Positions 40,612 to 59,808 of a DNA stretch of 64,000 nucleotides are shown one piece after another. A program made the position numbers and the translations under genes. The stretch is from Amphritea sp. (GTDB lineage Bacteria; Pseudomonadota; Gammaproteobacteria; Pseudomonadales; Balneatricaceae). Where the stretch lies: NCBI RefSeq assembly GCF_016744155.1, contig NZ_JADGEW010000025.1, positions 1 to 64,000 on the forward strand, in the 5' to 3' direction. Position 1 is the stretch's first letter. The number at the start of each line of letters is the position of its first letter. The notes below the pieces were generated by a model. It searched no databases. It worked only from the letters and a program-made list of their open reading frames with translations, and was not told where the DNA came from.

Positions 40612-40644
40612 GGCCAAATTAGACGATCCAGAAGCGATACGACA

Positions 40645-43449: not shown

Positions 43450-43459
43450 GGTCTGAAGT

Positions 43460-43954
43460 ATGACTATTCAGCGAACAGCGCTTGGCTGGCTCTGGCTGGT
43501 GGCAGTGGTTTTAGTACTGGATCTATTTACTAAATATCAAGCTACTAGCCTGCTTCCCTATGGTGTTGCGCATCCCCAGTTGCCCGTATTTGATCTGACT
43601 CTGTTGCATAACACCGGGGCAGCGTTTAGCTTTCTGGCTAAAGCGGGAGGCTGGCAGCGCTGGTTCTTTGCCGCTATAGCGGTAGGCGTCAGCATTGTAT
43701 TGCTGGTGTGGATGGCGCGTACTCCGCGTCACCAACGTTGGTTGGGTGCAGGGCTGGCTCTGCTATTAGGCGGAGCACTGGGAAATCTTTACGACCGAAT
43801 AGTGCAGGGGTATGTAATCGACTTCATTTCGTTGCACTACAAAGGTTATTATTTCCCTGCATTTAACCTTGCTGATACGGCGATTACTATCGGTGCAGCT
43901 ATGCTGATTATCGATATGATATGGTTTTCTGATACTAAGAATAATTCAAACTAA
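43460..43954 (+). CDS. lspA: Lipoprotein signal peptidase (signal peptidase II)
   Basis: LspA cleaves signal peptides from prolipoproteins in the inner membrane. The 164-residue product has four hydrophobic helices and the two catalytic aspartates in GNLYDRIVQGYVIDF and FNLADTAI. E. coli has 164 residues. It lies between ileS and fkpB, a standard order. Confidence 0.97.
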   Translation: MTIQRTALGWLWLVAVVLVLDLFTKYQATSLLPYGVAHPQLPVFDLTLLHNTGAAFSFLAKAGGWQRWFFAAIAVGVSIVLLVWMARTPRHQRWLGAGLALLLGGALGNLYDRIVQGYVIDFISLHYKGYYFPAFNLADTAITIGAAMLIIDMIWFSDTKNNSN

Positions 43955-43965
43955 AGGTCTGTGTT

Positions 43966-44409
43966 ATGTCACAAAATACGCCACAACTGACAATCACTTC
44001 GGATGCTAAAGTAACGCTGCACTTTGCTATCAAGCTGGAAGACGGGCAGGTAATTGATTCCAATTTTGAAGGCAAACCGGCTACTTTTACGGTAGGCGAT
44101 GGTCAATTGCTGGAAGGCTTTGAGAAAACCCTGATGGGAATGCAATCCGGTGATGAGGCGGTGATTGATATTCTGCCTGAGCAGGGTTTTGGCATGTCTA
44201 ATCCAAGTAATATGCAGCGGCTTCCTCGGAAACAGTTTGGTGATATGGTGCTGGAATCTGGCTTGGTTGTCTCTTTTGCCGATGCCTCTGATGGTGAGTT
44301 GCCAGGGGTTGTTGCTGAGTTTGATGATAAGATGGTGACAATCGATTTTAACCATCCTCTGGCGGGTAAAAACCTTAAGTTTGAAGTTAAAATACTCTCA
44401 GTTGAGTAA
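43966..44409 (+). CDS. fkpB: FKBP-type peptidyl-prolyl isomerase (FkpB/SlpA)
   Basis: The 147-residue product is a SlyD-like FKBP with an inserted chaperone flap: VTLHFAIKLEDGQVIDSN, LEGFEKTLMGMQSGDEA and LPEQGFG. E. coli FkpB has 149 residues. In many gammaproteobacteria ispH follows directly; here no ispH is present and the pilus genes begin after 171 bp. Confidence 0.93.
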   Translation: MSQNTPQLTITSDAKVTLHFAIKLEDGQVIDSNFEGKPATFTVGDGQLLEGFEKTLMGMQSGDEAVIDILPEQGFGMSNPSNMQRLPRKQFGDMVLESGLVVSFADASDGELPGVVAEFDDKMVTIDFNHPLAGKNLKFEVKILSVE

Positions 44410-44457
44410 GCTCGTAATTCTGTAGCTGAACCGGTTTATAAACTTTTTATTGAGTCA

Positions 44458-44481
44458 GGTCAGTATTTTACGGTACTGACC
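44458..44481. promoter_or_regulatory. Perfect inverted repeat upstream of pilus cassette A
   Basis: GGTCAGTA and TACTGACC (44458-44465 and 44474-44481) form a perfect 8-bp inverted repeat around TTTTACGG. No T-run follows, so it is more like an operator or processing hairpin than a terminator. A second short hairpin, AGCGCC-GTA-GGCGCT, lies at 44536-44550, after a TATAAT at 44523-44528 region of uncertain promoter value. Confidence 0.4.
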
Positions 44482-44580
44482 GTGTCGAATACGTTTGGCA
44501 AAAAGTAACAGTCCTGTCTAATATAATACCTGTTGAGCGCCGTAGGCGCTTCTATAGACAAAAACAACAAGGATGTTGTG

Positions 44581-45114
44581 ATGTGTATACAGGGTTTGTT
44601 TTCTCCTCATTTTCCGTTCGTCACTGATCAGCTGGTCTCTCGACGTTTCTCGCGCTTTGACTCCTCTGCAAAAAAGACCTCTCAACAGGGTGTTAGCCTG
44701 ATTGAAGTGCTGGTGACTCTGGTGCTTGTGGCTATCGGGCTGTCTGGCATGATGATTATGCAGGTCCGTGGTTTAGAACAGAATCAAAGTGCTTACCTGC
44801 AAACGCAGGCGATAGCGATGGCGGGTGATTTGGCTGATCGGATGCGCCTGAATAAGACAGCTGCATTGAACGACTTCTATCGCCTCGCGGAAAATGACAC
44901 CGCCGCTAATTTTGCTAACCCCGCGTCTACCCCCATTGAAAAGAAACTGGCCTATAACGATCTGAATACCTGGTTAGGCTGGATTGAAACCAGCCTTCCC
45001 CTAGGTAATGCAGTGATAACCCGTAATAACCAGATCATTCAGATCATGCTCAGTTGGGGCGGTGAGGGTGGTAAGCCGACCGGAAGTTATACCTATGAGA
45101 TAGACCTATTATGA
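44581..45114 (+). CDS. pilV: Type IV pilus minor pilin PilV, cassette A
   Basis: PilV is a minor pilin that primes pilus assembly and anchors PilY1. The 177-residue product has a long cytoplasmic leader and the prepilin cleavage site QQG-VSLIEVLVTLVLVAIGLSG, with Glu at +5 and a hydrophobic helix. ATG at 44581 is chosen because AAGGA lies 8 bases upstream; the frame extends further back without support. The leader of about 37 residues before the site is long for PilV. Its TGA overlaps the pilW start. Confidence 0.88.
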   Translation: MCIQGLFSPHFPFVTDQLVSRRFSRFDSSAKKTSQQGVSLIEVLVTLVLVAIGLSGMMIMQVRGLEQNQSAYLQTQAIAMAGDLADRMRLNKTAALNDFYRLAENDTAANFANPASTPIEKKLAYNDLNTWLGWIETSLPLGNAVITRNNQIIQIMLSWGGEGGKPTGSYTYEIDLL

Positions 45115-45866
45115 GCCCTGATATGAGCCCTGATATGAGACCGGATATGGGGTCTGCCTCCCTTACTGGCAACTATCAGTCCGGCTTAACGCTGATCGAA
45201 TTGATGATTGCTTCTGTGATTGGTTTGCTACTGACCTCTGCAATGCTGACTGCTTATGTGGCTTCAGCGCGGACTTATCAGCTTCAGGATGCGATGTCTG
45301 AAGTCCAGGAAAGTGGGCGCTTTGCTATGCATGCTTTGTTAAAAGACCTGCGTCAAACTGGTGTCGGAGTCTCTGGTGATCTGATTATCGAGGGGGTGTT
45401 CAATACCGCAGATGATGTTGCTGCTTTTGAATCAACCCACTCTGATTTGATCATTGTTCAGAAAAATGTACGTAGTGAAATAGTCTATCTGCCGGGTCTG
45501 GAGGCTGATGGTATTGCTTACTATATCGGCGCTACCGGTGTTGGGCGTATCGCACTTTATAAAAATGGCGATGCCCTGGTTGAAGGCGTTTCAGAGCTGA
45601 TAATCGAATACGGAGTCGACGCTGACGCCGATAAGCTTGTGGATAATTATAAAAAACTAGCCAGCATGTCCGCAGCCGATAAGGATAACATCATCAGTGC
45701 CCGTTTTTATCTGTTACTGAGTAGTTCCGCAACGGGGGTTACAGGTAAGACGCAGCAGCTGGCAGCCCCCTTTGCTGCTGTGGATACATCTGACCGGCGT
45801 CTTTATCAGATATTTACAGCGACGGCGTTACTTAGAAATGCACTGGTAGTGAAGGAGGGCAGCTAA
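45111..45866 (+). CDS. pilW: Type IV pilus minor pilin PilW, cassette A
   Basis: PilW is a minor pilin of the priming complex. The 251-residue product has the prepilin site SG-LTLIELMIASVIGLLL and the typical ESGRFAMHALLKDLRQTG after the helix. Its first codons are three direct 12-bp copies (ATGAGCCCTGAT twice, then a variant), giving MSPDMSPDMRPDM and four in-frame ATGs at 45111, 45123, 45135 and 45147, so the true start is uncertain. Its ATG overlaps the pilV stop (ATGA). Confidence 0.87.
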   Translation: MSPDMSPDMRPDMGSASLTGNYQSGLTLIELMIASVIGLLLTSAMLTAYVASARTYQLQDAMSEVQESGRFAMHALLKDLRQTGVGVSGDLIIEGVFNTADDVAAFESTHSDLIIVQKNVRSEIVYLPGLEADGIAYYIGATGVGRIALYKNGDALVEGVSELIIEYGVDADADKLVDNYKKLASMSAADKDNIISARFYLLLSSSATGVTGKTQQLAAPFAAVDTSDRRLYQIFTATALLRNALVVKEGS

Positions 45867-46450
45867 TGACCATTAGAGCTCAGTATTTTTGCAATGCTCA
45901 ACGTGGAGCTACATTAGTGGTTGCGCTGATTTTGCTGCTGGTTATGGCGTTGATGGCCTCTACCTCTCTGCAGAGTAACGTATTGCAGCTGCGGATGGCG
46001 GCTAATATGCAGGATGAAACTGTCGCCTTTGAAGCAGCAGAAACGGCGTTGCTCTATTCAGAAAAGTGGTTATCTGAGCAGGGAGAGATGCCCGACCTGA
46101 TTCACTATGATGACTGGCATACAACTAGCAGAGAGTTTGTTTTTGATAGTTCAAAGAGCTCTTTGCTGAAAGAGAAGCTGGCCCAGCTTGACTCGGTCAG
46201 TGACTGGGAGAATAAAGCCCAGTTGGTCACCCTGTTCGATGTTAATGCCGCTAAACCGGGCAGGGTCGATGAGCCGTCTCGAGTGACTCTTGAATTCAGG
46301 CAGTATGATGCGGATAACAAGACAGTCAAAGGCGCCTATCTAGGTGAGTCAGGCTCTGGATTGTTTCGCCAGTTGAGTAGAAATACGGGAGTGACAGGTA
46401 ACAGTGAAGTGATTCTCGTCAGTGAATATCGTAAGCGATTTGAGTATTGA
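45866..46450 (+). CDS. pilX: Type IV pilus minor pilin PilX, cassette A
   Basis: PilX is a minor pilin that lacks the usual Glu at +5. The 194-residue product has QRG-ATLVVALILLLVMALMA, the PilX N-terminal signature, and AANMQDETVAFEAAETALL after it. The ATG overlaps the pilW stop. The last 100 residues are variable, as expected for PilX. Confidence 0.86.
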   Translation: MTIRAQYFCNAQRGATLVVALILLLVMALMASTSLQSNVLQLRMAANMQDETVAFEAAETALLYSEKWLSEQGEMPDLIHYDDWHTTSREFVFDSSKSSLLKEKLAQLDSVSDWENKAQLVTLFDVNAAKPGRVDEPSRVTLEFRQYDADNKTVKGAYLGESGSGLFRQLSRNTGVTGNSEVILVSEYRKRFEY

Positions 46451-46452
46451 TA

Positions 46453-49224
46453 ATGAGTAAAACAGGGAGGTTTAAAGCATTACTACTGACGGCGCTATTA
46501 GCCTGGCAGGCAGATGCGGCTGAATATAATCTGAGTCAGATTCCCATTGGTGTCATTGAGACGGCTGAGCCGAACGTGATGCTTCTGCTGGATACCTCGG
46601 GAAGTATGGGGAGTGCTCCCGGCAGTGGAGGAGCGTCAAAGATGGAACAGGCTAAATCTGCAGCTGAAGCGGTGATTAAGTCGGGACAGGGGATGAAAAT
46701 CGGGTTGGCACGGCTGAATGGAAATGATGGTGGGCAGATAGATGAAGCCTGTGGTACGAGTCAGACCGATCTTTTAGCAACATTACAGGGCTACAGCGAA
46801 GGCGGTAATGCCCCGGTTGCAGAAGCGCATTACGAGGTTACTCGTTACTTCAGGGGGATGCGAGGCCACTTTACACATACCAGTAGTAACTACCAATCTC
46901 CGATAACCAGTCAGTGCCAGAAAAATTTCACTATCGTGCTTTCAGATGGCCAGCCGACTGAGGATGGGGATTTCCTTGGTATTAATGACGCTGATGCGGG
47001 ACGTAACTTACCCAACTGGGATAAGTCCGATGATGATTCATCCCTCGATGGGGGAAGCGCACCCGCAGACCCTAGATACTTCCTGGATGACCTGGCAAAG
47101 TTTGCCTGGGAAACAGACCTGAGTAGTCAAGATGGCGTGCAGAATATGCACACTTACACGATCGGCTTTGATATTAATTTCCCTATGTTGAATAGTGCGG
47201 CAACCAAAGGGCATGGTGAGTATTTTCTAGCGGGTAATGAATCTGAACTGCTTGCCTCGTTAAATAGCATCTTTGCTGATATTAGTAAAAAATCATTCAC
47301 AGAAACCCGTTTGAGCGCGAACAGTGGTTATCTAAACACAGGACTCAACCTCTACCAGGCTAGTTACAATACGGCTAGCTGGTCTGGGGAACTGAGTGCT
47401 TATAGTGCTGTCATTGATTCAATATCCGGTGACCTTGGCTTTGACTCTGTCCCAGTCTGGCGCTCGTCGGCATCTATTCCCGCAGAGACAGCCCGGGTGG
47501 TTATCACTAACAGGGGGGCTGCTGCGCTCCCCTTTCGCTCGAATAGGTTGAGTGCTGTTGAGCAGCTAGCATTAGGTTACCCCTCGGTTGACGAGTTGGT
47601 CAGGTATATCCGTGGTGAAGAGATTGCGGGTCTTCGTGTCCGAAGTCATGTGCTTGGCGATATTATTCATTCTAATCCTATCTATATTGGGGCATCCCGG
47701 GGCTTTAATAGCAGTGCCTCATATCGGACTTTTAAAACAAGCACCAAAGCCCGCGAGCCGATGGTCTATGTGGGCGCCAATGATGGCATGCTTCATGGCT
47801 TTAGGGCGTCAGACGGTAAAGAGCTCCTCGCCTATATCCCTTCGGTATTATTGCCCAAACTTAAACATCTGGCCGATGAGGAGTATGGGCATCATTACTA
47901 TGTTGATGGTTCACCCATGGTGAATGATGCGATGATCGATGATGTCTGGCGAACGATGCTTGCCGGAGGTTTGAATGCTGGTGGGCAGGGAATCTATGTG
48001 CTCGATATAACGGACCCTGGCCATTTTACTGAGGCAGCGGCTAATCAGATTTTTGCTTGGGAGTTTACCGATAGTAACGACGCAGATATGGGTTATAGCT
48101 ATGCTCAGCCTGCGATCGTTAAGCTTCAGGATGGTCATTGGTATGTGGCTTTCGGTAACGGTTATAACAACACTGAACCGGATGGGCATGCCAGTACTAG
48201 CGGAGACGCAGTTATTTATCTGGTTGATCTGGCCACCGGGCAGCAGATGATTAAATTATCCACCAATACTGGTATAGATGAGGCTCCGGTCGGGCTTGAT
48301 CGACCAAACGGTATGTCGACCCTATCACCGGTGAGTGATGACGGGGAAACGGTCACTGTTATTTACGGGGGTGATCTTTATGGCAATGTGTGGAAATTTG
48401 ATCTGAGCGGCCCGGATTCCTCTGCGTGGAAACTGGCATACAAACTCTTTCAGGCTTGTCGTAGCTCAACACAGAGCAATCCCTGTAGTACCGATGATAT
48501 CCAGCCTATTACTTCAGGTATTGCAGTGTCTGAAGATAAAAAAGGGCATAACTTTCTCTTTTTCGGTACGGGTAAGGATTTCGAACTTTCCGATAAAGCA
48601 GATGACAGCCTGCAAACCTTTTATGGGGTTCTGGATAAAAATACAGCTGTTATCGGAGGGCGGTCGGCTTTGTTAGAGCAGTCTGTCTATCAGCAAGGTT
48701 TCTTTGATATTGGCGGTGTCACCCGCGAGCTTCGGCTAACGACAAATAACAGATTGCAAAGCGTTCAGGCGGGCTGGTTTATGGATCTTCAGGCTCCTGA
48801 TGGCAAGGGTAACTGGATAGCCTCGGGAGAGCGAATGCTGGCTGAGCCACAACTTACAGGCCTTAACGTTACTTTTGCTACAAAACGCTATACCTCTGAC
48901 CCCTGCCAAACCGGTGGGGAGAGTTTTGAGACAATACTAGATAAATACTCAGGTAGTCGGCTGAGTTATGTCGGCACTGATAATAACCGGGATGGTCAGT
49001 TTGATGACAAGGATAAAGTAATCGATACCCATGGTGATGAGGTGGCTGCATCAGGTGAAAAGCTGGGTAATGGAATGGGGGCTACTATAATTGCTGGCGA
49101 TGATTTCAATTATCGGGTGGCAGTCGGTGATCAATCTGACTCGGATAAAAGTCCACCTGACAAAGTGCAGCAAGATCCAGGCTCTAATGGCCGTACAAGC
49201 TGGCGTTATCTGGAGCGTGATTGA
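46453..49224 (+). CDS. pilY1: PilY1-type pilus-tip adhesin with von Willebrand A domain, cassette A
   Basis: PilY1 is a secreted tip protein that, with the minor pilins, drives extension and adhesion. The 923-residue product has a signal peptide (ALLLTALLAWQADA), a von Willebrand A domain with the MIDAS motif Asp47-x-Ser49-x-Ser51 (LLDTSGSMG) and later FTIVLSDGQPTEDG, and a C-terminal PilC beta-propeller (VGANDGMLHGF, DLYGNVWKFDL). An EF-hand-like DNNRDGQFDDKD occurs near the end. The ATG at 46453 is preceded by a weak site; a TTG at 46447 is possible. The pilE start overlaps the stop. Confidence 0.88.
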   Translation: MSKTGRFKALLLTALLAWQADAAEYNLSQIPIGVIETAEPNVMLLLDTSGSMGSAPGSGGASKMEQAKSAAEAVIKSGQGMKIGLARLNGNDGGQIDEACGTSQTDLLATLQGYSEGGNAPVAEAHYEVTRYFRGMRGHFTHTSSNYQSPITSQCQKNFTIVLSDGQPTEDGDFLGINDADAGRNLPNWDKSDDDSSLDGGSAPADPRYFLDDLAKFAWETDLSSQDGVQNMHTYTIGFDINFPMLNSAATKGHGEYFLAGNESELLASLNSIFADISKKSFTETRLSANSGYLNTGLNLYQASYNTASWSGELSAYSAVIDSISGDLGFDSVPVWRSSASIPAETARVVITNRGAAALPFRSNRLSAVEQLALGYPSVDELVRYIRGEEIAGLRVRSHVLGDIIHSNPIYIGASRGFNSSASYRTFKTSTKAREPMVYVGANDGMLHGFRASDGKELLAYIPSVLLPKLKHLADEEYGHHYYVDGSPMVNDAMIDDVWRTMLAGGLNAGGQGIYVLDITDPGHFTEAAANQIFAWEFTDSNDADMGYSYAQPAIVKLQDGHWYVAFGNGYNNTEPDGHASTSGDAVIYLVDLATGQQMIKLSTNTGIDEAPVGLDRPNGMSTLSPVSDDGETVTVIYGGDLYGNVWKFDLSGPDSSAWKLAYKLFQACRSSTQSNPCSTDDIQPITSGIAVSEDKKGHNFLFFGTGKDFELSDKADDSLQTFYGVLDKNTAVIGGRSALLEQSVYQQGFFDIGGVTRELRLTTNNRLQSVQAGWFMDLQAPDGKGNWIASGERMLAEPQLTGLNVTFATKRYTSDPCQTGGESFETILDKYSGSRLSYVGTDNNRDGQFDDKDKVIDTHGDEVAASGEKLGNGMGATIIAGDDFNYRVAVGDQSDSDKSPPDKVQQDPGSNGRTSWRYLERD

Positions 49225-49658
49225 TGCTACGAAAACCTGAACCTAAGTCGGGTGGCTTTACCATAATAGAGTTGATGATTGCAGTTGCCATCGTAGGTTT
49301 GCTAGCGGCGCTTGCTTACCCCTCATATTTGCAATACATACAGCGAAGCTGGCGAGCATCTGCCCGACTTTGTTTACTGGATATGAGCCAACAGATGGAG
49401 CGTCGGTATGCTTCTGACTTGAGTTATGGGCCGATCTTAGATACCGCTGGTAACGATACCGTCTTTACTTCTGCCTGCGTGACTAATGGTGATATGGATA
49501 GTCGCTATGGGTTTCATGGTGTTGTTAATGGCGGGTTTGTTTTACTAGCTGCGCCTATAGGTGGGCAGAGTAATGATGCATGTGGGCAGCTAGGAATAGA
49601 CCAGTCGGGTACTAAATCGGTTGCTGGTGGTACCGCAGCACTGGCTGAATGTTGGTAA
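49224..49658 (+). CDS. pilE: Type IV pilus minor pilin PilE, cassette A
   Basis: The 144-residue product has the PilE-like prepilin site SGG-FTIIELMIAVAIVGLLAALAYPSY (in pieces), then a helix and a disulfide-type C-terminal region with several cysteines (RLCLLDM, SACVT, DACGQ, ECW). The ATG at 49224 overlaps the pilY1 stop and is preceded by GGAG. A fimT-type gene follows 22 bp later. Confidence 0.87.
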   Translation: MLRKPEPKSGGFTIIELMIAVAIVGLLAALAYPSYLQYIQRSWRASARLCLLDMSQQMERRYASDLSYGPILDTAGNDTVFTSACVTNGDMDSRYGFHGVVNGGFVLLAAPIGGQSNDACGQLGIDQSGTKSVAGGTAALAECW

Positions 49659-49680
49659 TAGGTTTGATGGAGCAATGGCT

Positions 49681-50166
49681 ATGGATGGTCGCACAGAAAA
49701 AGGCGTTACTCTGATAGAGTTGTTGGTGGCCTTAAGTGTATTAGCAATCTTGCTGACGGTAGGAGTGCCATCATTGGCGGGCTTTGTCAGCTCGCAGAAA
49801 CTTGATTCCACCGTACAGCTATTAAAAGACAGTTATAGCCAAGCTCGTTACGAAGCGGTTACCCGCCAGCAACCCGTTACTCTCTGTCCTCTGGATGTTG
49901 CTAGTGGCAGCTGTGGCAGTAGTTGGAGTGAAGGGGTGTTCAGTTATCTCGATCTCAATGGCGATAATAGTTATGACTATCTTCAGGATACTCTGTTGCG
50001 TCAGAATGAATTCCCCAGCGGTGTGTTGGTTGATTATAAAAAGCGCCTAAAGATCAAGCTAAGTCCTAGAGGAACGACAGGGGATACAGGAACCTTCACT
50101 GTGAAAGTCTCAGGAGATGAAAAAGCCTTAGTGGTTTCCAGTATGGGACGCATTAGAAGAGGCTGA
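49681..50166 (+). CDS. fimT: FimT/GspH-type minor pilin
   Basis: The 161-residue product has the prepilin site KG-VTLIELLVALSVLAILL and the GspH/FimT domain with SQARYEAVTRQQPVTLCP and the end ALVVSSMGRIRRG. Start ATG at 49681 is chosen because GGAG at 49669-49672 is properly spaced; ATG at 49675 is too close to it. In P. aeruginosa a FimT gene precedes fimU-pilV-W-X-Y1, so this could equally be read as the first gene of cassette B. Confidence 0.85.
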   Translation: MDGRTEKGVTLIELLVALSVLAILLTVGVPSLAGFVSSQKLDSTVQLLKDSYSQARYEAVTRQQPVTLCPLDVASGSCGSSWSEGVFSYLDLNGDNSYDYLQDTLLRQNEFPSGVLVDYKKRLKIKLSPRGTTGDTGTFTVKVSGDEKALVVSSMGRIRRG

Positions 50167-50353
50167 TATATTCCTTAATTCATCACAAAATAAGATTTAA
50201 ATCAGTTACATAGCGGTTTTATTAGATTTAGTCTTACTTCTTTCGTACAGCTGTTTAGTTTCTTTGAAAAATTTATCATACTCTTTTTGAGGACTATAGA
50301 CTGGGAGCTTATTTATTGAGCAGCTAGACTGTATGATGCTATGAGTCGTTTAA

Positions 50354-50369
50354 TGGCCTTATAATTGTT
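50354..50369 (+). promoter_or_regulatory. Sigma54-like sequence (overlapping a TATAAT) before fimU
   Basis: TGGCCTTATAATTGTT aligns with the sigma54 pattern TGGC-N7-TTGCW at the key GG and TG positions, but two conserved bases differ. A TATAAT box at 50360-50365 overlaps it, with no good -35. Either reading makes this a plausible start region for cassette B, 26 bp before fimU. Sigma54 control of pilus genes is known in other bacteria. Confidence 0.35.
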
Positions 50370-50395
50370 AGCTAGATTTACGGAGGAGCATCCCA

Positions 50396-50899
50396 TTGCG
50401 AAAGCAGCTTAAACAGGTTCAGGGTTTTTCATTATTAGAGCTAATGATTGCCCTTGTTGTACTAGGTGTTCTACTTGGGATAGGTATCCCTAGTTTTAAC
50501 TCTATAACCGAGTCAACTCAGCTTAGAGCTGTTACTCATAGTTTAAATTCAGCAACTCAGCTCGCTCGCTCAGAGGCTCTTGATACCCGGGATGATACCG
50601 CTGTGTGCCGTGCAAGTGTTAATTTTGATGCATGTGATTTTGCTACAGATTGGAGTACGGGCTGGGTTGTGGTGACGCTGACAGGTGCAGATTTAGAAAC
50701 TCCGGCCGATGTTACTGTAGTGAGAGTTTGGGAGCCTGTGGATATCGTTGTTTCTGGTGCGGCTAATGGATTTGTGTTTAATAGCTCTGGCCGTGCGACT
50801 ACGAATGGAGATATACAGATTCAAAGTAACGCAGAAAGTCGTTTCATATGTGTAAATGGAAGCGGCCGAGTGGCTGTTCTAGAGGTCAATTGCCCATAA
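50396..50899 (+). CDS. fimU: FimU/GspH-type minor pilin, cassette B
   Basis: The 167-residue product has the prepilin site QG-FSLLELMIALVVLGVLLG and the GspH domain with SATQLARSEALDTRDDTAVCR and a closing FVFNSSGRATTNGD...ICVNGSGR. The start is TTG at 50396 with GGAGGAG in front at good spacing. This gene and its neighbours are noticeably AT-rich (22 of 60 G/C in 50401-50460 by hand count). Its TAA overlaps the pilV start. Confidence 0.86.
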   Translation: MRKQLKQVQGFSLLELMIALVVLGVLLGIGIPSFNSITESTQLRAVTHSLNSATQLARSEALDTRDDTAVCRASVNFDACDFATDWSTGWVVVTLTGADLETPADVTVVRVWEPVDIVVSGAANGFVFNSSGRATTNGDIQIQSNAESRFICVNGSGRVAVLEVNCP

Positions 50900-51333
50900 T
50901 GTCTACTCATACAATAAAAAGATGCTTCAATGAACGAGGCTCATCGCTGATAGAGGTGTTGATAGCTGTTGTAATTATTTCTATAGGGCTGCTTTCGGTT
51001 GCTGCTCTACAAACAGTCGCCTTAAAAAGCAATCATGGCTCTTATAATAGGTCTCAGGCAACCTTTCTAGCCTATGACCTTGCTGACAGGATGAGGGCTG
51101 CCCCGGCGTCCGCTCTCAATGGCGATTATGATGATGGTGCAGGAGGGGATCGTGCTGAATGGGATGCGAGAGTTCTTGCGCAACTAAATACAGGAGCAGT
51201 TGGGCTGGTCACGAGGAATAACCGAGTCGTAACTATTAGAATTCGTTGGAATGATAATCGTGCGAGAATTCGAGCAGAGAATGATGTGAATGATGCAGCT
51301 TTAATCGATTTTATTTATAGGATGGAGTTTTAA
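50899..51333 (+). CDS. pilV: Type IV pilus minor pilin PilV, cassette B
   Basis: The 144-residue product has the prepilin site RG-SSLIEVLIAVVIISIGLLSVAALQ (in pieces), with Glu at +5. It shares the PilV architecture with cassette A but its body is different and shorter. ATG at 50899 overlaps the fimU stop. It ends directly before the pilW start. Confidence 0.85.
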   Translation: MSTHTIKRCFNERGSSLIEVLIAVVIISIGLLSVAALQTVALKSNHGSYNRSQATFLAYDLADRMRAAPASALNGDYDDGAGGDRAEWDARVLAQLNTGAVGLVTRNNRVVTIRIRWNDNRARIRAENDVNDAALIDFIYRMEF

Positions 51334-51336
51334 TTG

Positions 51337-52296
51337 ATGCCTGCCCAATTACTGAACCAGCGACAGAAAGGTTTTAGTTTAATCGAGTTGATGATCGCTC
51401 TGGTCTTAGGGCTGTTTATTGTGGGAGGGGTTTTGGCCGTTTTTATTGGTAGTTCTGCAAGTTTTAGCAGTAATGAGGCGCTCTCCCGTGTTCAGGAAAA
51501 TGGTCGCTTTGCGCTGGAGATTATTGCGGAGGATCTACGCAATACAGGAAATAAAGGCAGCTGCTGGGGTCAAGTGACAGATGTTATCAATACCGGCGAT
51601 GCTGACTACGAGGCAGATGCATACGATTTGAATGATCCTATAAAAGGATGGGTTGCAGCTGCAGGGGAGTTTTTTGTGGCTGATTTAAATACTTATAATG
51701 CTAACACCGATATTGTATTAATTAAGCATGCTGCGGACACTGTAAACGCGACACTTTCAGCCAATGTTGGCTCTACTGCTGCCAGCTTTCCTATTGCCGG
51801 AGGGGTAATTCCAGGGGCTATTCTTCTTCTGTCTGATGCTGCAGGCTGTGACCTGTTTCAAAACACAGCGGCTCTTAATTCCTCAACTCTTCAACGGGGA
51901 ACGGGGGGGGTTACTATTGGAAATGAAACCGTACTATCTCAACCACTGAGTCATTCGTATTTGGGTTCTGGAAGTACGGAAATTTCGTCGCTTTCCAGTA
52001 CGCTTTATTATGTCGGTTCAGGCACGTCGACAGCATCAGCATTACGTAGTGTGAATTATGATAATGGTGTTGCCGCGGATCAGGAGCTAGTTGAGGGTGT
52101 AGTCGATCTTACCTTGGTTTATGCAGTCGTGTCTGGCGCGGGTCCTGCTTTAGATTATACCAATACGGCGGCTGATATTACCGCCGCTAATGAATGGGAT
52201 GATGTTGTAGCGGTAAGAGTCACTGTGGACATAGAAGGTGAACAGAATATCTCTCATCAGTTTACGACGACTGTTGCCCTTAGGAATCGACTGTAA
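51337..52296 (+). CDS. pilW: Type IV pilus minor pilin PilW, cassette B
   Basis: The 319-residue product has KG-FSLIELMIALVLGLFIVG and the PilW signature ENGRFALEIIAEDLRNTGNKG. It is larger than the cassette A PilW (251), mostly through a longer middle region with AAASFPIAGGV and other loops. ATG at 51337 is preceded by GGAG at 51324-51327; TTG at 51334 is also possible. Its TAA overlaps the pilX start. Confidence 0.86.
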   Translation: MPAQLLNQRQKGFSLIELMIALVLGLFIVGGVLAVFIGSSASFSSNEALSRVQENGRFALEIIAEDLRNTGNKGSCWGQVTDVINTGDADYEADAYDLNDPIKGWVAAAGEFFVADLNTYNANTDIVLIKHAADTVNATLSANVGSTAASFPIAGGVIPGAILLLSDAAGCDLFQNTAALNSSTLQRGTGGVTIGNETVLSQPLSHSYLGSGSTEISSLSSTLYYVGSGTSTASALRSVNYDNGVAADQELVEGVVDLTLVYAVVSGAGPALDYTNTAADITAANEWDDVVAVRVTVDIEGEQNISHQFTTTVALRNRL

Positions 52297-52745
52297 TGAT
52301 GATTGAACGGAAAATGGCAGCTAAAGATAAAGAGCGTGGCGCGGTATTAATTATCGCGCTTATCTTCATGCTTATACTCTCTTTTATCGCCGTGAGTTCC
52401 ATGCAGGGGACCACAATGCAGGAGAAAATGTCTGGGAATCTTCGTGACCGGTATTCTGCGTTTAATGCGGCGGAGGCTGCATTGCTGGAAGGCGAGCGAC
52501 AAGCGAGTATTAATTACTTTAATAATAGTTTAGATGTTGATACGCCAAGTACTGGCACTTATGCAGGTTCATTTTCAAGCAATGCTGAGCCTTCTTGGAA
52601 TGCTGAGCTGATGGCTGATATTTATGTGAGTACGTCTATTGATGCGGAGCCTTCAGGTGCTGTCATAAAAGTAACGGCCTCTTCAGATGGGCGTTCTGGA
52701 CAATCAGATGTCTTACTTGAATCAATTTATGTAGTGGAAGAATAG
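52296..52745 (+). CDS. pilX: Type IV pilus minor pilin PilX, cassette B
   Basis: The 149-residue product has RG-AVLIIALIFMLILSFIAVSSMQ, the PilX-type N-terminus without Glu at +5, and SAFNAAEAALLEGERQA after it. Two ATGs (52296, 52299) are possible. It is shorter than PilX of cassette A (194). pilY1 follows after 31 bp. Confidence 0.84.
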   Translation: MMIERKMAAKDKERGAVLIIALIFMLILSFIAVSSMQGTTMQEKMSGNLRDRYSAFNAAEAALLEGERQASINYFNNSLDVDTPSTGTYAGSFSSNAEPSWNAELMADIYVSTSIDAEPSGAVIKVTASSDGRSGQSDVLLESIYVVEE

Positions 52746-52776
52746 GTTTGCCTACTCTGCTATGGGGGACTTTTCA

Positions 52777-55700
52777 ATGAAACACTTTGAATCTACACGC
52801 CGATGTTGGGTAGTCTCTGCGTTTATGGTTATGTTTAGCTCTTTGTCGTCGCAAAGTATAGCTTCGACGGTTGCACAAACTCCGCTGTTTTTGGGACAGG
52901 GTAATGTCCCCGGTAACCTATCACTAGTGCCGTCTGTCGAGTGGCCAACAGTATTAAGTGCCGCAAATATTGGTAGTTATAATGAAGACAGCGAGAGTAT
53001 AGGTTATTTTGATTCGGGAAAATGTTATCGCTATCAATATGATGCAGCCGAACCAGATCGGCATTTTTATCCAGTAACCTCGACAGCGAACTATAAATGT
53101 CCTGGTAATTATTGGAGCGGTAATTTTTTAAACTGGGCGACCACGCAAACGATAGACCCGTTTCGCTGGGCATTAACGGGAGGCTATCGGGTTAAAGATA
53201 CAACAACGGAAACCTGGATTGAGAAAGCGAGGCATAGCGGTCAAAATAACAGCTTTGATGATCGCTACCTCAATGGAGCTGCCGTTGTTAATAATGCGAC
53301 ACCCTTCTCCACAGCTACCTTTCGGACTGATATCGGCGGGCTGGGGAATCAGATGCATTTTACCCTGCCTTCAGGGCATGGTTTTATGAACTTAACAGGA
53401 CCGATTTCATATAGTACTGTGCTTAATGATACGGACTTTAGCTCAGGTTGGACGGATTACTCCAGCGGGGCAGTTGTTCAAAGCTCTACTGAATCTGTTG
53501 AGTCAGGGGGTAACTCACTTAAAAAAATTAACAATAACGACCCTGATGGTGGTTACAAAAGCCTTTCAGCAGCGGTAGATTACGACGGTTTTGTGTTTGA
53601 AGGCTGGATCTATCGGCCAACGGTTGGAACTCAATCGGGTGCGTCTGATCGTTTAGCGTTGTCGGATAACAGTGCTAACGGTTATGGCTTTAGTATTTCT
53701 GGCAGTAACTTCAAAATTGAAAAGCGAAATGGCGGTTCTGCCAGCTCTATCAGTAGTGATGTTTCATGGACTAGACTGACTGATCAGTGGTACCGCTTTG
53801 TGTTTGAAAGTGTACCGGGCGATAAATTCAAGCTGACTATTTACAACAGTGCGGGCACTCAACAGGCTACAGTAACCAGTAATACGGATACCAGTTATAA
53901 CAATTTCAGTCGCTTATATGTTCACGGGGGCCATGAGTATTACGTAGATAAAGTTTCGGTTGTTTCTTATTCAGGATCTGGAACGCTGGCCTATGACCCT
54001 ATTTCGGTTGATATATTTGGTACCACTGTACGAGTAGCGGTGTGTGATTCCAGTATAGGGGTCGAATCAAACTGTAAACAGTATGGTAGTAACTGGAAGC
54101 CGGAAGGGCTGATTCAGCGTTATTCCGAGGAGATCAGGTACAGTATTTTTGGTTACCTGAATGACTCAAATATCAGGCGTGATGGGGGCGTTCTTCGGGC
54201 ACGTAAAAAGTTTGTGGGCCCTATGAAGTTGGATCCAACAGCAGGAGAGGTTACAAATCCTAATGCTGAATGGGATGCGACGACTGGAATTATGGTTCGC
54301 AACCCTGATACGAGTGATGCATCAGGTGCCGCAGCCTATTATGGAACGACGATATCTGACAGTGGTGTGCTGAACTATTTGAATAAGTTCGGCCAGCTGA
54401 ATAATAATTCGCTCAAAAGTTATGATCCCGTCAGTGAGCTGTATTACACCGCGCTTCGCTACTATAAACATCAAAGTAGTATCGATGAGTATTATACGAA
54501 GTCCCCTGCACATAACTCTTCTCCTGGAAGTACTGAAATTGCTAAATGGGTAGATGGTTTTCCTGTTATTCGCACTTGGGACGATCCCATTCAGTACGCC
54601 TGTCAGAAGAATGTAATCTTAGGTATCGGGGATGTTAATACCCATAGAGACAAAAACCTTCCAGGAAATACCAGCGGGACAGATGAGCCGACCAAGCCAA
54701 CAGAGGTAACCTCTGACAGTACGGTTAATGTGAGAACCGCTACTAACAAGATAGCCGCACTGGAAGGCATTAGCATTGATACTGGGGCTGCCAGCTATTC
54801 TGGCCGAAACAACTCTGCATTTATGGCAGGTCTCGCTTATGATGCCAACACTATGGATATTCGCCCAGTTGATTTTGCAGGTACACAAACTGTACAAACT
54901 TATTGGGTTGATGTGCTTGAAAACCAATATCTTCGAAACACAAGAAACAATCAGTTTTGGCTGACCGCCAAATATGGTGGCTTTGTGGTTCGTAAACATC
55001 CTAGTTGTTCCTCGGCCACTTATACTCCTACAGGAACCGAGTGTAATGAACAGAGCTTAGGTGATCCCTATCTGCGAACTGCGCCGTTACCTGAGTGGTG
55101 GTGGTATACCAATACGGATATGTTGAATCCTGATGAGTCGGGCGCTGATTATAGAAGAACTGATAACTTTTATACTGCTGGTGATGCCCGTAAAATGGTT
55201 GATGGTCTAACGGACGCCTTTGCATCAATTACCGCTTCAGTTCGAGGTGCAGCGTCTGCGTTAACTGCGAATACGTCTCGCCTAGGTACAAACTCAGCAC
55301 TGTTTAATGCACTGATGGACTCAAATCTATGGTCTGGCGATCTGGTTGCAAGAGGGATTAGTTCGTCAGGAGTATTAGCGTCGGCAGACACATGGAGTGC
55401 TGCCACCGTTATGGATGCTCTTGCAGAGTCTAATTTGATAAATCGGAAGATTTTCACTAGTACCTATGCGACAGAAAATTCTATTACCGGTATTACCCTT
55501 AATGCGAGTGGTGTTGACTTTAAATGGGCGGACCTGTCTGCAGAACAGAAACTGATGCTGCGGACAACGCCAGCAAGCGGGACGCCAACGACGGAAGCTG
55601 TAGCACAGCAGCGATTGGATTTTTTAAGAGGTAGTCGCACCCTTGAGCAAACATTAACTAATACTTCTAATCCTTTCAGGGAGCGTGGTAGTCGTCTTGG

Positions 55701-57312
55701 AGATATCGTTAACTCATCTCCTCAATATGTAGCCCAGAAGAATTATGGGTTTAGCAGCTTGGGTAGCCCGTTTTCAGTCTCGACTCGCGCGGCATATCTG
55801 ACCTATCGTACATCGACTACTTATGTTGATAAGCCACCTATTTTGTTAGTAGGCGCTAACGATGGAATGTTGCATGCCTTTGATGCAACGTTAGGCACGA
55901 ACGGCGGTAAAGAGTTATTTGCCTACGTGCCTTCCGGTGTGTTCAGTAACCTGTTTGAGTTGGTTTATCCTGACTACGGTCATAAATACTTTGTTGATGG
56001 TGTTCCTCGGGCATTTGATGCCTGGTTTGCGCCAGCAGATGTGCCAATAGGGGTCACTTCAGGGTGGAAAACAGTTGTTGCTGTAACGCCTGGTGGTGGT
56101 GGCGCTGGGGTTTCGTTGCTAGATGTTAGCGACCCTGAAAATATGACTAAAGATGATGTACTTTGGGAATTTTCACATCAGGATATGGGGGCTTTAGTAC
56201 AGCAGCCATTCATCGCGCCTCTTCCGAATGGAAAGTTTGGCGTCATTGTATCAAGTGGTTTTTCCCATGGTGCGGCTCAGGGGCATATATGGATTTTGAA
56301 TGTAGCTGATGGCTCAATCATAAGAGATATTGTTGTACCGACGACTGGTGGTTTAGGGCAACCTTCAGTTATCGATCTTAACCGGGATAAAATTGTAGAT
56401 CGTATCATTGCCGGTGATACCCTTGGTAATGTTTGGCGGTTTGATATTACAGGGGCTGTTTCGAGTAATTGGGCGCCCCCATTGTCCCTGCTGAGCGGGA
56501 CTACTCCACTACCGTTTTATGTGGCTAAGGATGCCTCAGCTGTGCGTCAGCCAATAACCGGGCCAATAAATACCGCTTTTGATAGCAAAGGAAATCATAT
56601 GGTGCTGTTTGGCACCGGCAGCTATCATCTGAGTGGAGATAATGAAGTAGGTCTCAACCCTCAAGTGCAAACGCTTTATGGAGTGTTGGATACAGGTGTG
56701 GTTGTCAGTGACCGATCACAACTGTTGAAGCAAGAGATTCTATTCGAAGGTTCAATAGGTAGTAATGGAATACGGGTAACAAGTAATAATCACCTTCAGT
56801 CTTCGGATAAAGGTTGGTATCTAGATCTCGAATGGTCAACCACTAGAGGTGGGCTAGGGGGAGAGGGTGAGCTTATTGATACTCGGCCTGTGCTGAGAAT
56901 AGGCCAGGTGCTTGTGTCGACGAAAATTCCGTCTTCAGACCCTTGCAAAGGTGGCGGCAGTAGCTGGGTTTTGGCGTTAGATTATGAATCTGGTTCTCGC
57001 CTCAGTAATACAACCTTTGATTATAACGATGACGGGACCTTTACTGCCGATGATTTAGCGGATGTTCCTACGACAGATGCCAGTGGTAATCCTATAACGG
57101 TATCTACAGATGGTTCTGGAATAATGTTCGATAAAGATACTGGAGGATTTGTGAATCTAGGCGATGGGTCTCTGGTAAAAGGAGTTGACGCTTCCACTGG
57201 TGCAGGGAAAACCTGGGCATGTCTGAGCAACAGCAGTAGCGCAACGATTAGCTGTCCTGAGTTTAATGGTTCGTTTAGCGAAGGACGTAAGAGCTGGAGA
57301 GAGATTAGATGA
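52777..57312 (+). CDS. pilY1: Large PilY1-type pilus-tip protein with lectin-like insertion, cassette B
   Basis: The 1511-residue product has a signal peptide (about 1-30), the PilY1 N-terminal region with [26 protein letters not shown] and [21 protein letters not shown], and a C-terminal PilC propeller ([27 protein letters not shown]) with an EF-hand-like DLNRDKIVD at about 1200-1208. Between residues about 217 and 398 lies a beta-rich, Ser/Gly/Tyr-rich stretch ([36 protein letters not shown]) that looks like a LamG/carbohydrate-binding jelly roll. No DxSxS MIDAS is seen. ATG at 52777 has GGGGGA seven bases upstream. Its stop overlaps pilE. Confidence 0.87.
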   Translation: [1511 protein letters not shown]

Positions 57313-57710
57313 CTCAGATGAAACATGAGCGAGGTTTTACGTTGTTAGAGCTGCTGATCGTAGTAGCCATTGTCGGAATCTTGTCAGCGATTGCTTATCC
57401 CAGTTACCAGGAAAGTGTCGCTGATGGCCGGCGGGTTGATGCTCAGGCAAACCTGCTTTCTTTGGCTCAGTACATGGAACGAGAGTATACTGAGAACGGT
57501 GCCTATGACGATGCAGGGACGGCGTTACCCTACAATGAAGCGCCTAAAGATGGCACGCCTAAATTTTATGATTTAGCATTAACAGTTCAGTCAGGGGCTG
57601 TATTTACGATTAGGGCAAGACCTAAAAACGGCATGTTAGGTGATCGTTGTGGAGATATGACGCTCACTCATACAGGGCAAAAAAACGCTGTAGATCCCGA
57701 TTGTTGGTAA
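57309..57710 (+). CDS. pilE: Type IV pilus minor pilin PilE, cassette B
   Basis: The 133-residue product has RG-FTLLELLIVVAIVGILSAIAYPSYQ (in pieces) and a PilE-type body with two cysteines near the end (GDRCGDM, DPDCW). The ATG at 57309 overlaps the pilY1 stop and GGAGAGAG is just upstream; ATG at 57318 is an alternative. An intrinsic terminator ends the cassette. Confidence 0.88.
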   Translation: MTQMKHERGFTLLELLIVVAIVGILSAIAYPSYQESVADGRRVDAQANLLSLAQYMEREYTENGAYDDAGTALPYNEAPKDGTPKFYDLALTVQSGAVFTIRARPKNGMLGDRCGDMTLTHTGQKNAVDPDCW

Positions 57711-57749
57711 CTCGCTGTTTTATTGAAATAAATCATGCTTAAATGAAAT

Positions 57750-57774
57750 AAAACGCGTCTTCTGCGCGTTTTTT
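57750..57774 (+). terminator. Terminator after pilus cassette B
   Basis: AAAACGCG and CGCGTTTT pair around TCTTCTG, followed by TT. It lies about 40 bp after pilE and before thiO. Confidence 0.75.
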
Positions 57775-57814
57775 ATATACTCATTCCTCTTTGTACAAAC
57801 CATAAGGCTCATCT

Positions 57815-58906
57815 ATGTCTGACTACCTGATTATTGGTGCAGGTGTTATCGGTATGCTGACGGCCAGAGAGCTGGCGCAGTCGGGTGCTGAAGTTACCCT
57901 GGTGGATATGAATAATTGCGCCCAGGAAGCATCCTGGGCCGGTGGTGGTATTGTCTCACCCCTTTATCCCTGGCGTTATTCCGATCCAGTGACAGCTCTG
58001 GCGACTTGGTCGCAAACCAGTTATATCCATCTGGCTCAACAGCTATTAGAAGAGACCGGTTTGGATCCTGAGCTTCGCCAAAAAGGCATGTTTATGGTCG
58101 GTGTTGAGGATGCTGAGGAAGCTTTGGCCTGGGGGCGTCAGTATCAGAAGCCGATGGAGCGGGTTAGTAGCGATTTCTTGTATCAGAAAGAGCCTGGTTT
58201 AGCGTCAGGTTGTGACTCTGCTTTATGGATGCCTGAGGTTGCCAGTATCCGTAATCCTCGTTTGGGACGCTCTCTGCGACGCAGTATGGAGATTACTGCG
58301 AATATCAACCTGATAGAACAGAGCAAGGTAGAGGGTCTCATTGCTAAGGATGGATCGGTAACCGGCGTACGATTGGCTGATCAGACGCTATCCGGGAATA
58401 AAGTTATTCTCGCGGCGGGAGCCTGGAGTGGTGAGTTGCTAGCCCCGCTGGGGATTGAGTTGCCAGTTGAGCCGGTTAAAGGTCAGATGATGGTGTTTAA
58501 GGCACCGGTAGGTTTGATTAATCGTGTGGTGTTGATGGAGGGACGCTATCTGATTCCCCGTAATGATGGCCGGATACTGGTGGGGAGTACTCTGGAACGG
58601 GTTGGCTTTGATAAACAAACGACGGAAGAAGCGAAGGCGTCTCTTTATCAAACGGCTATTAATATCTGTCCAGCCCTGGAAGGCTATGAAATTGAGCATC
58701 ATTGGGCAGGTTTAAGACCCGGGTCTCCTGAAGGAATTCCCTATATCGGTGGGGTACCGGGTTATGACAACCTATATATCAATGCGGGACACTATCGTAA
58801 CGGATTGGTCCTGGCGCCTGCATCGACACGGTTACTGGCCGATCTGTTGCTGAGTCGTCAACCGGTGATCGCCCCTGCACCTTATCAACTGGAAGGGCGG
58901 GTATAG
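57815..58906 (+). CDS. thiO: FAD-dependent glycine oxidase ThiO
   Basis: ThiO oxidises glycine to the imine used in thiazole synthesis for thiamine. The 363-residue product has the FAD-binding Rossmann motif IIGAGVIGMLTARELAQ at about residues 5-21 and the DAO-family motif EVNCAQEASWAGGGIVSP-like NCAQEASWAGGGIVSP. The C-terminal block HWAGLRPGSPEGIPYIG fits the family. It is next to the pilus genes in P. aeruginosa as well. No thiS or thiG is adjacent, so the exact substrate is less certain. Confidence 0.88.
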   Translation: MSDYLIIGAGVIGMLTARELAQSGAEVTLVDMNNCAQEASWAGGGIVSPLYPWRYSDPVTALATWSQTSYIHLAQQLLEETGLDPELRQKGMFMVGVEDAEEALAWGRQYQKPMERVSSDFLYQKEPGLASGCDSALWMPEVASIRNPRLGRSLRRSMEITANINLIEQSKVEGLIAKDGSVTGVRLADQTLSGNKVILAAGAWSGELLAPLGIELPVEPVKGQMMVFKAPVGLINRVVLMEGRYLIPRNDGRILVGSTLERVGFDKQTTEEAKASLYQTAINICPALEGYEIEHHWAGLRPGSPEGIPYIGGVPGYDNLYINAGHYRNGLVLAPASTRLLADLLLSRQPVIAPAPYQLEGRV

Positions 58907-58948
58907 CTCATCAGGTTTCGCACATTAGATGAGATGTGAGCATCAGAT

Positions 58949-58976
58949 AAAAAAGGCCTCTCATGAGGCCTTTTTT
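58949..58976. terminator. Bidirectional terminator between thiO and nadE
   Basis: AAAAAAGGCCTC and GAGGCCTTTTTT form a perfect 12-bp stem around TCAT, with T-runs on both strands. It serves the converging thiO and nadE genes. Confidence 0.92.
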
Positions 58977-59808
58977 AATTGTAGATCGTCGGTATCGGTT
59001 GGCGTTTATGTTCAGTCCACTTATAGATAGCTATGAGTTTATCTTCCACTTCTGGGCTGACGGCCTTGCCTTCTAAAAAGTCATCAATCTGATCGTAGCT
59101 GAGCCCCAGTGCGGCTTCATCAGTCTTTTGGGGTTCATCACACTCAAGGTCTGCAGTGGGAGTTTTGTGAATGAGTTGTTCCGGTGCGCCCAGGGCTTCA
59201 GCCACTGCCCGAACCTGTCGTTTGCTTAGGCCGAACAGTGGTGCCAGATCGCAGGCGCCATCACCATGTTTGGTATAAAAACCGGTGATGTTCTCTGCGG
59301 AATGATCGGTGCCTAAGACCAATCCACCGAGTAAACCGGCGATCTCATATTGAATGGTCATGCGGATACGGGCTTTTACATTGCCCTTGGAAAAATCGAT
59401 ATGTGCAGGGCTGCCAGCATCCACACCGGCGACATTTAAGGCCTCCAGAGTTGCCGAATGTACTCCATCGGCACCGGGCTGAACGTTTGCAGTCACGCAT
59501 TTAGTTGGCGATATAAAAGAAACTGCGGCCTGTGCATCGTCCTCGTCCTGCTGGGCGTTATAGGGTAAACGGACAGCGATAAAACGAAAGTGATCAGTGC
59601 TCTCTTCGATATTGAGCTGTTCTATTGCCAATTGAGCCAGCCGTCCGCAGGTCGTTGAATCAACCCCCCCACTGATACCAAGCACAAGATGTTTACAGCC
59701 ACTGGCCAGTAGAGTTGTCTTAATAAAGTTTACCCGACACTCAATCTCGGTTGAGGTATTGATCTCGGGTTTAACTTGCATTGCTGCAACAATTGAAGCT
59801 CTGTCCAT
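58975..59808 (-). CDS. nadE: Ammonia-dependent NAD+ synthetase
   Basis: NadE makes NAD from nicotinate adenine dinucleotide and ammonia. The 277-residue product (E. coli 275) has the ATP pyrophosphatase P-loop [12 protein letters not shown], and [25 protein letters not shown] for the deamido-NAD and ammonia site (in pieces). It lacks a glutaminase domain, so it uses free ammonia. Its stop overlaps the bidirectional terminator. Confidence 0.95.

Follow-up and report, generated by a model that had tools for sequence, protein, structure and literature searches.

Introduction

The locus examined here holds two tandem minor-pilin/PilY1 cassettes and lies in a 64,000-nucleotide stretch of Amphritea sp. 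DNA (NCBI RefSeq assembly GCF_016744155.1, contig NZ_JADGEW010000025.1, positions 1 to 64,000; hereafter the window). The closest described systems come from several other bacteria. In the available text on Myxococcus xanthus, three clusters (1 to 3), each with a PilY1 and a FimU/PilV/PilW/PilX set, work with a single machine, for which either cluster 1 or cluster 3 is enough. HsfBA switches the expression of pilY1.1 and pilY1.3, and what the tip binds is proposed there to depend on the PilY1 N-termini (DUF4114 or vWA) (PMC7541494, PMC9109919). The accessible part of the work on Acinetobacter baumannii describes a fimU-pilV-comB-pilX-comC-comE-comF block that has been exchanged at least twice, with the flanking genes outside the exchange (PMC10374093). 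Partial texts likewise report paralogous pilE/V/W/X/Y1/fimT operons with divergent phenotypes in Xylella fastidiosa (PMC9956873) and glycan-binding minor pilins in Streptococcus sanguinis (PMC9934059, PMC8179133).

Cassette exchange and multiple sets are already known, and what appears new is a tandem locus in which one set is fixed and the other exchanged. Among the open-access papers listed in our searches, no title described such a locus or a lectin domain in PilY1. We propose that the Amphritea locus encodes one fixed (slot 1) and one exchangeable (slot 2) tip complex, each able to prime a single type IVa pilus (T4aP) machine, a reading to which we assign a probability of roughly 0.72.

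Results

Two cassettes at one locus

Genes were called from open reading frames (ORFs) together with Pfam and NCBIfam profile matches. The gene order in the window is ileS-lspA-fkpB, cassette A, cassette B and thiO, with nadE and bamD on the opposite strand. Cassette A consists of pilV-W-X-Y1-E-fimT and cassette B of fimU-pilV-W-X-Y1-E, with intact reading frames in both; the first cassette position is called slot 1 (A here) and the second slot 2 (B here). The pilins match their expected families and begin with a prepilin or PilX N-terminus. Within both sets, from pilV to pilE, neighbouring genes abut or share 1-4 bp; the one exception is the 16 bp that separate pilX-B from pilY1-B. The PilY1 family PF05567 has two matches in the whole 4.15-Mb genome, both at this locus (PilY1-A 167.2 bits, 7e-49; PilY1-B 110 bits; cut-off 28.1).

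An original prediction, made from the DNA letters alone, had described two V-W-X-Y1-E sets in the same order and tightly packed, and this is what the gene calls return; its protein sizes agree with ours within the choice of start codon (A and B, respectively: PilW 251 and 320, PilX 194 and 149, PilY1 925 and 1516 aa). It had also placed fimT and fimU between the two sets. Both genes do lie there, but fimT is assigned to A and fimU to B because of gene overlap and the arrangement in sister genomes. The true start of fimT is probably downstream of the listed ORF start.

Sister genomes differ in slot 2

Judged from the sequence, the two intact cassettes have separate origins, slot 1 is fixed, and slot 2 is replaced between similar junctions. 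Four pairs of sister genomes were compared: the window and G004, G011 and G014, G016 and A. pacifica, and G006 and G010. The window matches its nearest sister, G004, at 92.8% DNA identity over 40001-50257 and at 92.4% over 57746-59544, with no match between; at the right-hand junction, homology to both G004 and G015 restarts 36 bp after pilE-B. The G004 contig ends match the locus of G015, which carries a cassette of another type, C, in slot 2 (left end 84.7% over 413 bp; right end 88.6% over 3972 bp, thiO included). C also occupies slot 2 of G008; between G015 and G008 the cassette with its right flank is 72% identical in DNA and the left flank 74%. Comparison with G004, G015 and G008 suggests that B most likely replaced a C-type cassette in the lineage of the window. 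A recent sweep of C through the genus, considered on account of short PilY1 branches, was dropped since the C cassette diverges like its flanks (72% against 74%).

G011 and G014, in which both loci are whole on a single contig, share 83% DNA identity until 81 bp past fimT; beyond pilE the homology resumes at 91%, 24 bp downstream of the gene (13 bp in G014), with no collinear match between these junctions. G016 and A. pacifica both carry B and are 90% identical through slot 1. Synonymous divergence (dS) in this pair is about 0.2 for slot-1 pilY1 and pilW and for slot-2 pilE, 0.1 for bamD and 0.4 for thiO; in slot-2 fimU, pilV, pilW and pilY1 it is 0.9-2.4, and pilX is saturated. Because dS is high only there, the block from fimU to pilY1 was replaced and pilE spared. 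As in the A. baumannii type of exchange, the block replaced in slot 2 spans pilus genes and spares the flanks. The fimT gene itself is a mosaic: that of the window is 73-77% identical to those of G006, G010 and G016 and 52-54% to those of G013 and G015, and DNA homology of the window to G015 and G013 ends inside it.

Distribution across the genus and PilY1 phylogeny

PilY1 was sought in 115 relatives, of which 78 were positive, and fetched loci were annotated by best match to the proteins of the window. In 13 of the 17 genus genomes, window included, a single contig carries two PilY1 genes in a span of at most about 15 kb; G006 and G010 have one PilY1 plus a pilin set that lacks it, and in G004 and G013 the locus is cut by contig ends. 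Every genus genome whose locus spans both slots has a second pilin cassette. Slot 1 is of A type in 13/17 (in G013 as a fragment), and A. pacifica has A in slot 1 as well. The content of slot 2 varies. It is B in the window, G009, G016 and A. pacifica; another kind of PilY1, 1097-1700 aa long, in G005, G007, G008, G011, G014 and G015 (and a fragment of such in G004); and an E-U-W-large-V set devoid of PilY1 in G006 and G010. Identity of these PilY1 kinds to PilY1-B of the window falls to about 22-35%. The kinds of cassette in slot 2, which in most genomes lie between the shared elements described below, comprise a PilY1 with a predicted lectin fold, an H-lectin-like PilY1, a vWA PilY1 and a large-pilin set devoid of PilY1.

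A tree of flanking housekeeping proteins served as the species frame (21 rows, 15/18 inner branches starred). On it the type of slot 2 changes at least seven times by parsimony (13 genomes, six labels taken from the first PilY1 tree, with G013, G001-G003 and G012 set aside), a count that treats slot 2 of G007 as its own type and becomes 6 by hand if it is merged with C. When the C-terminal parts of PilY1 are placed in a 70-row tree, the 12 proteins from slot 1 group as one clade (Shimodaira-Hasegawa-like approximate likelihood ratio, SH-aLRT, 95.9). A single clade for ten slot-2 proteins is rejected (approximately unbiased, AU, test p 7.84e-06, log-likelihood loss 1581), with a p-value that is not blind, the group having been chosen after an earlier tree was viewed. 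The tree omits 28 of 98 PilY1 rows (fragments, distant members of the order, some family members and G013), and the copies of G001, G002, G003 and G012 count in it as neither slot 1 nor slot 2. A fresh tandem duplication is ruled out by the separate clades of PilY1-A and PilY1-B.

The part of the original prediction that concerned origin, namely diverged or separately acquired modules instead of a fresh duplication, is borne out by these trees and by the sisters that differ in slot 2. It had named as refuting a single set in relatives together with a broken, unexpressed remnant in the window, or trees with no separate origin along with no difference in function. This does not hold: two PilY1 genes are present in most of the genus, the frames are intact, and nonsynonymous divergence (dN) lies far below dS wherever the latter can be estimated, that is in all A genes (window against G004) and in pilV, pilW, pilY1 and pilE of B (window against G009, with dS near saturation).

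Tandem PilY1 arrays extend past this genus: G052, G077 and G088 have three or more PilY1 matches close together on one contig. In Aliamphritea spongicola (L004/L090), a single-contig assembly, each of the two PilY1 genes is broken up into multiple frames, by sequencing error or decay.

Cassette B beyond the genus

A genome scan for relatives of cassette B gave 220 loci, of which the best 77 were considered. B stands alone at the canonical place in Neptuniibacter (L082, L086, L087, L089). Between the Neptuniibacter genome UBA6509 (L082) and the window, PilY1 is 77% identical, whereas lspA, fkpB, thiO, nadE and bamD are at 61-70% and ileS at 78%. The concatenated cassette distance between the two is 0.39, within the range found inside Amphritea (0.37-0.46), while on the flank tree they are about 0.87 apart against 0.2 within Amphritea (branch lengths summed by hand). 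Horizontal movement of cassette B is the simplest reading of these values.

The same data bear on an alternative in which an ancient array of several tandem cassettes was thinned by differential loss, with no recent exchange. It draws on the extra pilin genes that G008 carries between slot 1 and its C cassette, and on G052, where three PilY1 genes lie within about 12 kb; moreover, in the concatenated tree of B the window groups with other Amphritea (100/100), which leaves some room for differential loss from an older array. Two independent sister pairs, however, have similar junctions and no matching remnant between these. Together with the G016/A. pacifica replacement inside one type and a cassette B that is nearer between genera than most flanks, this speaks against the alternative, and we consider it very unlikely.

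A probable single machine and two proposed kinds of tip

Outside the locus, the gene content of the genome resembles that of one T4aP machine, and at the locus the two sets differ in their N-terminal modules and, across the genus, in their leader elements, as far as sequence can tell. A single PilB-like ATPase lies next to a 182-aa pilin, and the genome also encodes one 707-aa secretin and a pair of adjoining PilT/PilU-like ATPases. The other machine matches fit a type II secretion system and a mannose-sensitive haemagglutinin (MSHA)-like system; all these assignments are based on size and neighbourhood. With this single PilB/secretin/PilT-PilU-like set, both tip sets probably work with the same T4aP machine. 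A third ATPase of the type IV filament kind (693 aa), with an adjoining 431-aa pilin, lies at C18:32442-34152 of the same genome and is perhaps MSHA-like.

Residues 384-923 of PilY1-A match the solved P. aeruginosa PilY1 (3hx6, E 1e-62). Its VWA matches fall under the Pfam cut-offs (26.2 against 27 and 20.4 against 23.8 bits), and the DxSxS metal-site motif is present near the N-terminus. This motif occurs at aa 47-58 in 13 of 14 slot-1 PilY1 rows, the fourteenth (G013) being a fragment; in G009 a chance DxSxS match was set aside in favour of the true site. Among B-type PilY1 proteins, PilY1-B included, DxSxS was found in the first 140 residues of 0/16 rows (10 distinct proteins).

PilY1-B instead has a domain inserted in its N-terminal half whose predicted model matches, in Foldseek and over most of its length, concanavalin-A-like lectin folds. 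The model has a predicted local distance difference test (pLDDT) score of 86.7 within the protein and 68 when folded alone, and both versions match lectin folds. Calreticulin, plant lectins and clostridial toxin binding domains are also among the matches, the fold being common, and we draw nothing from those. By its predicted fold, this domain may bind sugar.

Other slot-2 proteins carry further modules: C-type PilY1 has a marginal H_lectin match, and one PilY1 of a further type, D, has VWA_2 above the cut-off. In the C-type proteins L011:8146-13221 (1692 aa) and L020:4602-9701 (1700 aa) the H-type lectin match falls within aa 368-426 and scores 24.3 and 22.5 bits, respectively (cut-off 24). 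Some PilY1-less or neighbouring pilin sets include one very large pilin of 499-664 aa, in which Pfam recognises nothing past the pilin N-terminus. These large pilins are possible modular tip adhesins that could stand in for PilY1.

The resident fimT could also matter for exchange. Like FimT proteins of DNA uptake, it combines a GspH family domain with a C-terminal GRxR (here GRIR), described as the DNA-binding motif of FimT in the available part of PMC8897410; GRxR ends 11 of 13 slot-1 FimT proteins scored, and with A. pacifica 12 of 14. As ComEC is also present in the genome, the swapped DNA may plausibly have been taken up through the pilus itself.

Leader elements of the two slots

CsrA/RsmA sites carry GGA in a hairpin loop and have a consensus longer than ANGGA. 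A hairpin of this kind, ACAACAAGGATGTTGT, lies just ahead of the pilV-A start codon. It has a 6-bp stem with GGA in a 4-base loop over the pilV ribosome site, and it forms in RNA folding. It contains the ANGGA core of CsrA/RsmA sites (PMC11882435, in the accessible text), so that core, loop and ribosome site coincide in the predicted element. The 16-mer has a single exact match in the genome; at 2 mismatches 10 more places appear, compared with 5 for the reversed control. It is kept in 13/13 slot-1 leaders (at most 2 mismatches, 6/6 pairs), where stem changes preserve pairing, and in 0/14 slot-2 leaders, all of which differ by at least 4 mismatches; leaders after fkpB in other genera, outside A-type slot 1, show no such common element. 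The genome has two CsrA-family genes, and CsrA would control slot-1 translation through this predicted site. Among the open-access papers listed in our searches, none reported CsrA/RsmA control of minor pilins in its title or opening abstract lines, and the main text of two papers on Rsm targets does not mention fimU, pilV or pilY1.

Slot 2 is preceded by a promoter-like element, AACTGTTTTGGGTA, present with at most 2 mismatches in 11 of 14 slot-2 regions (the window, G011 and G013 being the others) and always 44-45 bp, start to start, upstream of CTAAAATATA, whatever the cassette type. In the shuffling control, at most 1% of shuffles per genome reached 2 mismatches or fewer. The terminator block before thiO was seen by eye in 10 of 12 aligned genomes, the window among them and G006 and G010 not, and as an exact 21-mer in 8/12; both motifs were derived from the alignment in which they were counted. 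A Sigma-70 scan gave 13 sites against 22.4 expected. In the window the promoter-like element is lost (5 mismatches), and the left junction lies upstream of its place. The genome-specific stretch 50258-50400 before fimU, which replaces the element, has no convincing match in any fetched locus, and B may here rely on read-through or on an unrecognised promoter.

This loss lends some force to the view that one of the two cassettes is a redundant spare, unexpressed cargo kept by chance, while the other makes the pili; in Myxococcus, too, pilY1.2 is near the detection limit and dispensable, according to the available text. Against this stand the uninterrupted frames, a dN much lower than dS in the A genes and the estimable B genes, and a second pilin cassette throughout the genus wherever both slots are spanned, and we consider it improbable. 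Cargo of a mobile element was also considered and rejected: in the fkpB-thiO interval all plus-strand ORFs of at least 90 aa are pilus genes save one 111-aa frame inside pilY1-A, while minus-strand ORFs nested in pilus genes were left unscanned and no integrase-aimed search was made.

Cassette A and FimU

The six-gene T4aP tip-priming set (FimU-PilV-PilW-PilX-PilE-PilY1) is complete, in one operon-like block, in cassette B. Cassette A has it only in part, being devoid of fimU and having fimT at the opposite end, and it may depend on the FimU of slot 2, so that the tips may be mixed and not alternative. Taken to its full extent, this gives one obligate composite tip, in which slot 1 has lost fimU and needs that of slot 2, perhaps with further subunits. 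After fkpB, pilV and not fimU is the first pilus gene in 13/13 A-type slot-1 leaders; the nearest single-cassette kin of A (genus g13) reads U-V-W-X-Y-E-T; and every whole slot 2 in A-type genomes has at least one GspH-type gene. However, the FimU-like proteins of non-B slot 2 are only 26-40% identical to that of the window (6 ORFs, 5 genomes), so that many partners would be required. Furthermore, fimT may substitute for FimU, and in the available Myxococcus text either cluster 1 or cluster 3 is enough and a fimU3 mutant retained some extension in the absence of PilT. We regard an obligate composite as unlikely.

Table 1. Coordinates of the features discussed; positions refer to the window unless a locus prefix is given.
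Feature	Position	Strand	Details
ACAACAAGGATGTTGT hairpin, predicted CsrA/RsmA-type site	44564..44579	+	AGGA (ribosome site) in loop, just ahead of pilV-A ATG
pilV-A (slot 1)	44581..45114	+	ATG start; TIGR02523 76.1 bits, cut-off 52.2
pilW-A	45111..45866	+	PF16074 E 5e-13
pilX-A	45866..46450	+	PF14341 E 1.5e-13
pilY1-A, 925 aa	46447..49224	+	vWA region aa 43-175, DTSGS (MIDAS) aa 49, propeller aa 403-733
pilE-A	49221..49658	+	ComP_DUS PF16732 E 6e-15
fimT	49621..50166	+	GspH domain PF12019 E 1e-13; C-terminal GRIR
Left exchange junction	50257..50258		homology to G004 stops 91 bp past fimT stop
fimU (slot 2)	50396..50899	+	GspH domain PF12019 E 9e-14
pilV-B	50848..51333	+	TIGR02523 74.1 bits, above cut-off; alternative ATG at 50899
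pilW-B	51334..52296	+	PF16074 E 1e-9
pilX-B	52296..52745	+	PF14341 E 1e-17
pilY1-B, 1516 aa	52762..57312	+	PF05567 E 2e-31; propeller aa 979-1311
Concanavalin-A-like lectin/CBM66-fold domain, aa 215-413 (predicted)	53404..54000	+	inserted in N-terminal half of PilY1-B
pilE-B	57309..57710	+	ComP_DUS PF16732 E 8e-22
Right exchange junction and conserved terminator	57746..57792	+	before thiO; GCGC hairpin, T run, TATATACTC
Very-large-pilin loci	L009:3443-5143, L015:3826-5589, L012:3144-5135, L033:695-2635, L034:14349-15845, L053:15310-16863		

Discussion

Taken together, we favour a locus in which slot 1 (A) would be the tip-priming set resident in the genus, its PilY1 being of the vWA/MIDAS kind, and slot 2 an exchange slot whose content, a complete fimU-pilV-W-X-Y1-E cassette or a large-pilin set devoid of PilY1, is replaced between lineages. 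The swap would most simply proceed by homologous recombination in the shared sequence past fimT and on the terminator/thiO side, perhaps acting on DNA imported by the pilus. Both cassettes would be expressed, and either could prime the one T4aP machine, so that pili would end in a vWA tip (A) or a concanavalin-like lectin tip (B), two tips that we distinguish by analogy with the PilY1 N-termini of Myxococcus. Translation of slot 1 would be gated by CsrA, and slot 2 would be driven separately.

Several observations count against this proposal, in addition to the extra pilin genes of G008, the grouping of B within Amphritea, the incomplete cassette A, the lost promoter-like element of the window and the AU test that was not blind. 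G006 and G010 are collinear at 85.9% throughout and show no swap. G001, G002, G003 and G012, all placed in the genus, have two cassettes and no A-type slot 1. Finally, several of the genomes are drafts, and the G004 locus is split over two contigs.

The original prediction had gone on to suggest two alternative tips on one machine, chosen by condition or surface. Its half on origin is well supported, while its half on function is only consistent with our results. Two alternative tips fit the single PilB/PilQ/PilT/PilU-like set and the Myxococcus precedent. A condition-dependent choice of set gains indirect support from the differing conserved leader elements of the two slots in the genus, a point weakened in the window, where the leader element usual for slot 2 is missing.

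A further step would be to see slot 2 as an evolved docking site for interchangeable tips, with a resident, translationally gated tip alongside, an idea for which we find the arguments evenly balanced. If it holds, the cell keeps a working pilus while trading the adhesive specificity of its second tip. More broadly, the locus suggests a way in which type IV pili could exchange adhesive heads, cassette by cassette, while the pilus itself is not put at risk. Sister species that have their resident tip in common and differ in the second offer a natural experiment on what multiple PilY1 sets are for, and PilY1-B a defined, putatively lectin-bearing tip whose ligand can be sought.

Among known systems, S. 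sanguinis is alike in having adhesive or glycan-binding modules on type IV pilus tip subunits; there, in the available text, the module sits on pilins of a Gram-positive pilus, whereas here a predicted lectin fold is inserted in PilY1. Pseudomonas has a single fimU-to-pilE operon; it shares the neighbour genes thiO and fkpB-lspA-ileS and a PilY1 of the B kind (41-47% identity), but in the loci seen it has one set, a PilY1 free of the lectin insert and the opposite orientation to fkpB-lspA-ileS. Xylella also has two sets, plus an extra pilY1 and fimT (PMC9956873); in the text available these lie in two different genome regions and not in tandem, and no exchange slot is described. Myxococcus resembles the present case in combining multiple full sets with one major pilin and a single machine, with PilY1 N-termini that vary, and differs in having three clusters, its accessible text describing no tandem fixed and exchanged locus such as the sister genomes show here. 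A. baumannii, as far as the available part of its description goes, likewise exchanges a whole minor-pilin/PilY1 block, with PilY1 variants that differ in the vWA part (PMC10374093); there the locus has one cassette and the tip set itself is replaced, whereas in Amphritea a resident second set stays beside the exchanged one.

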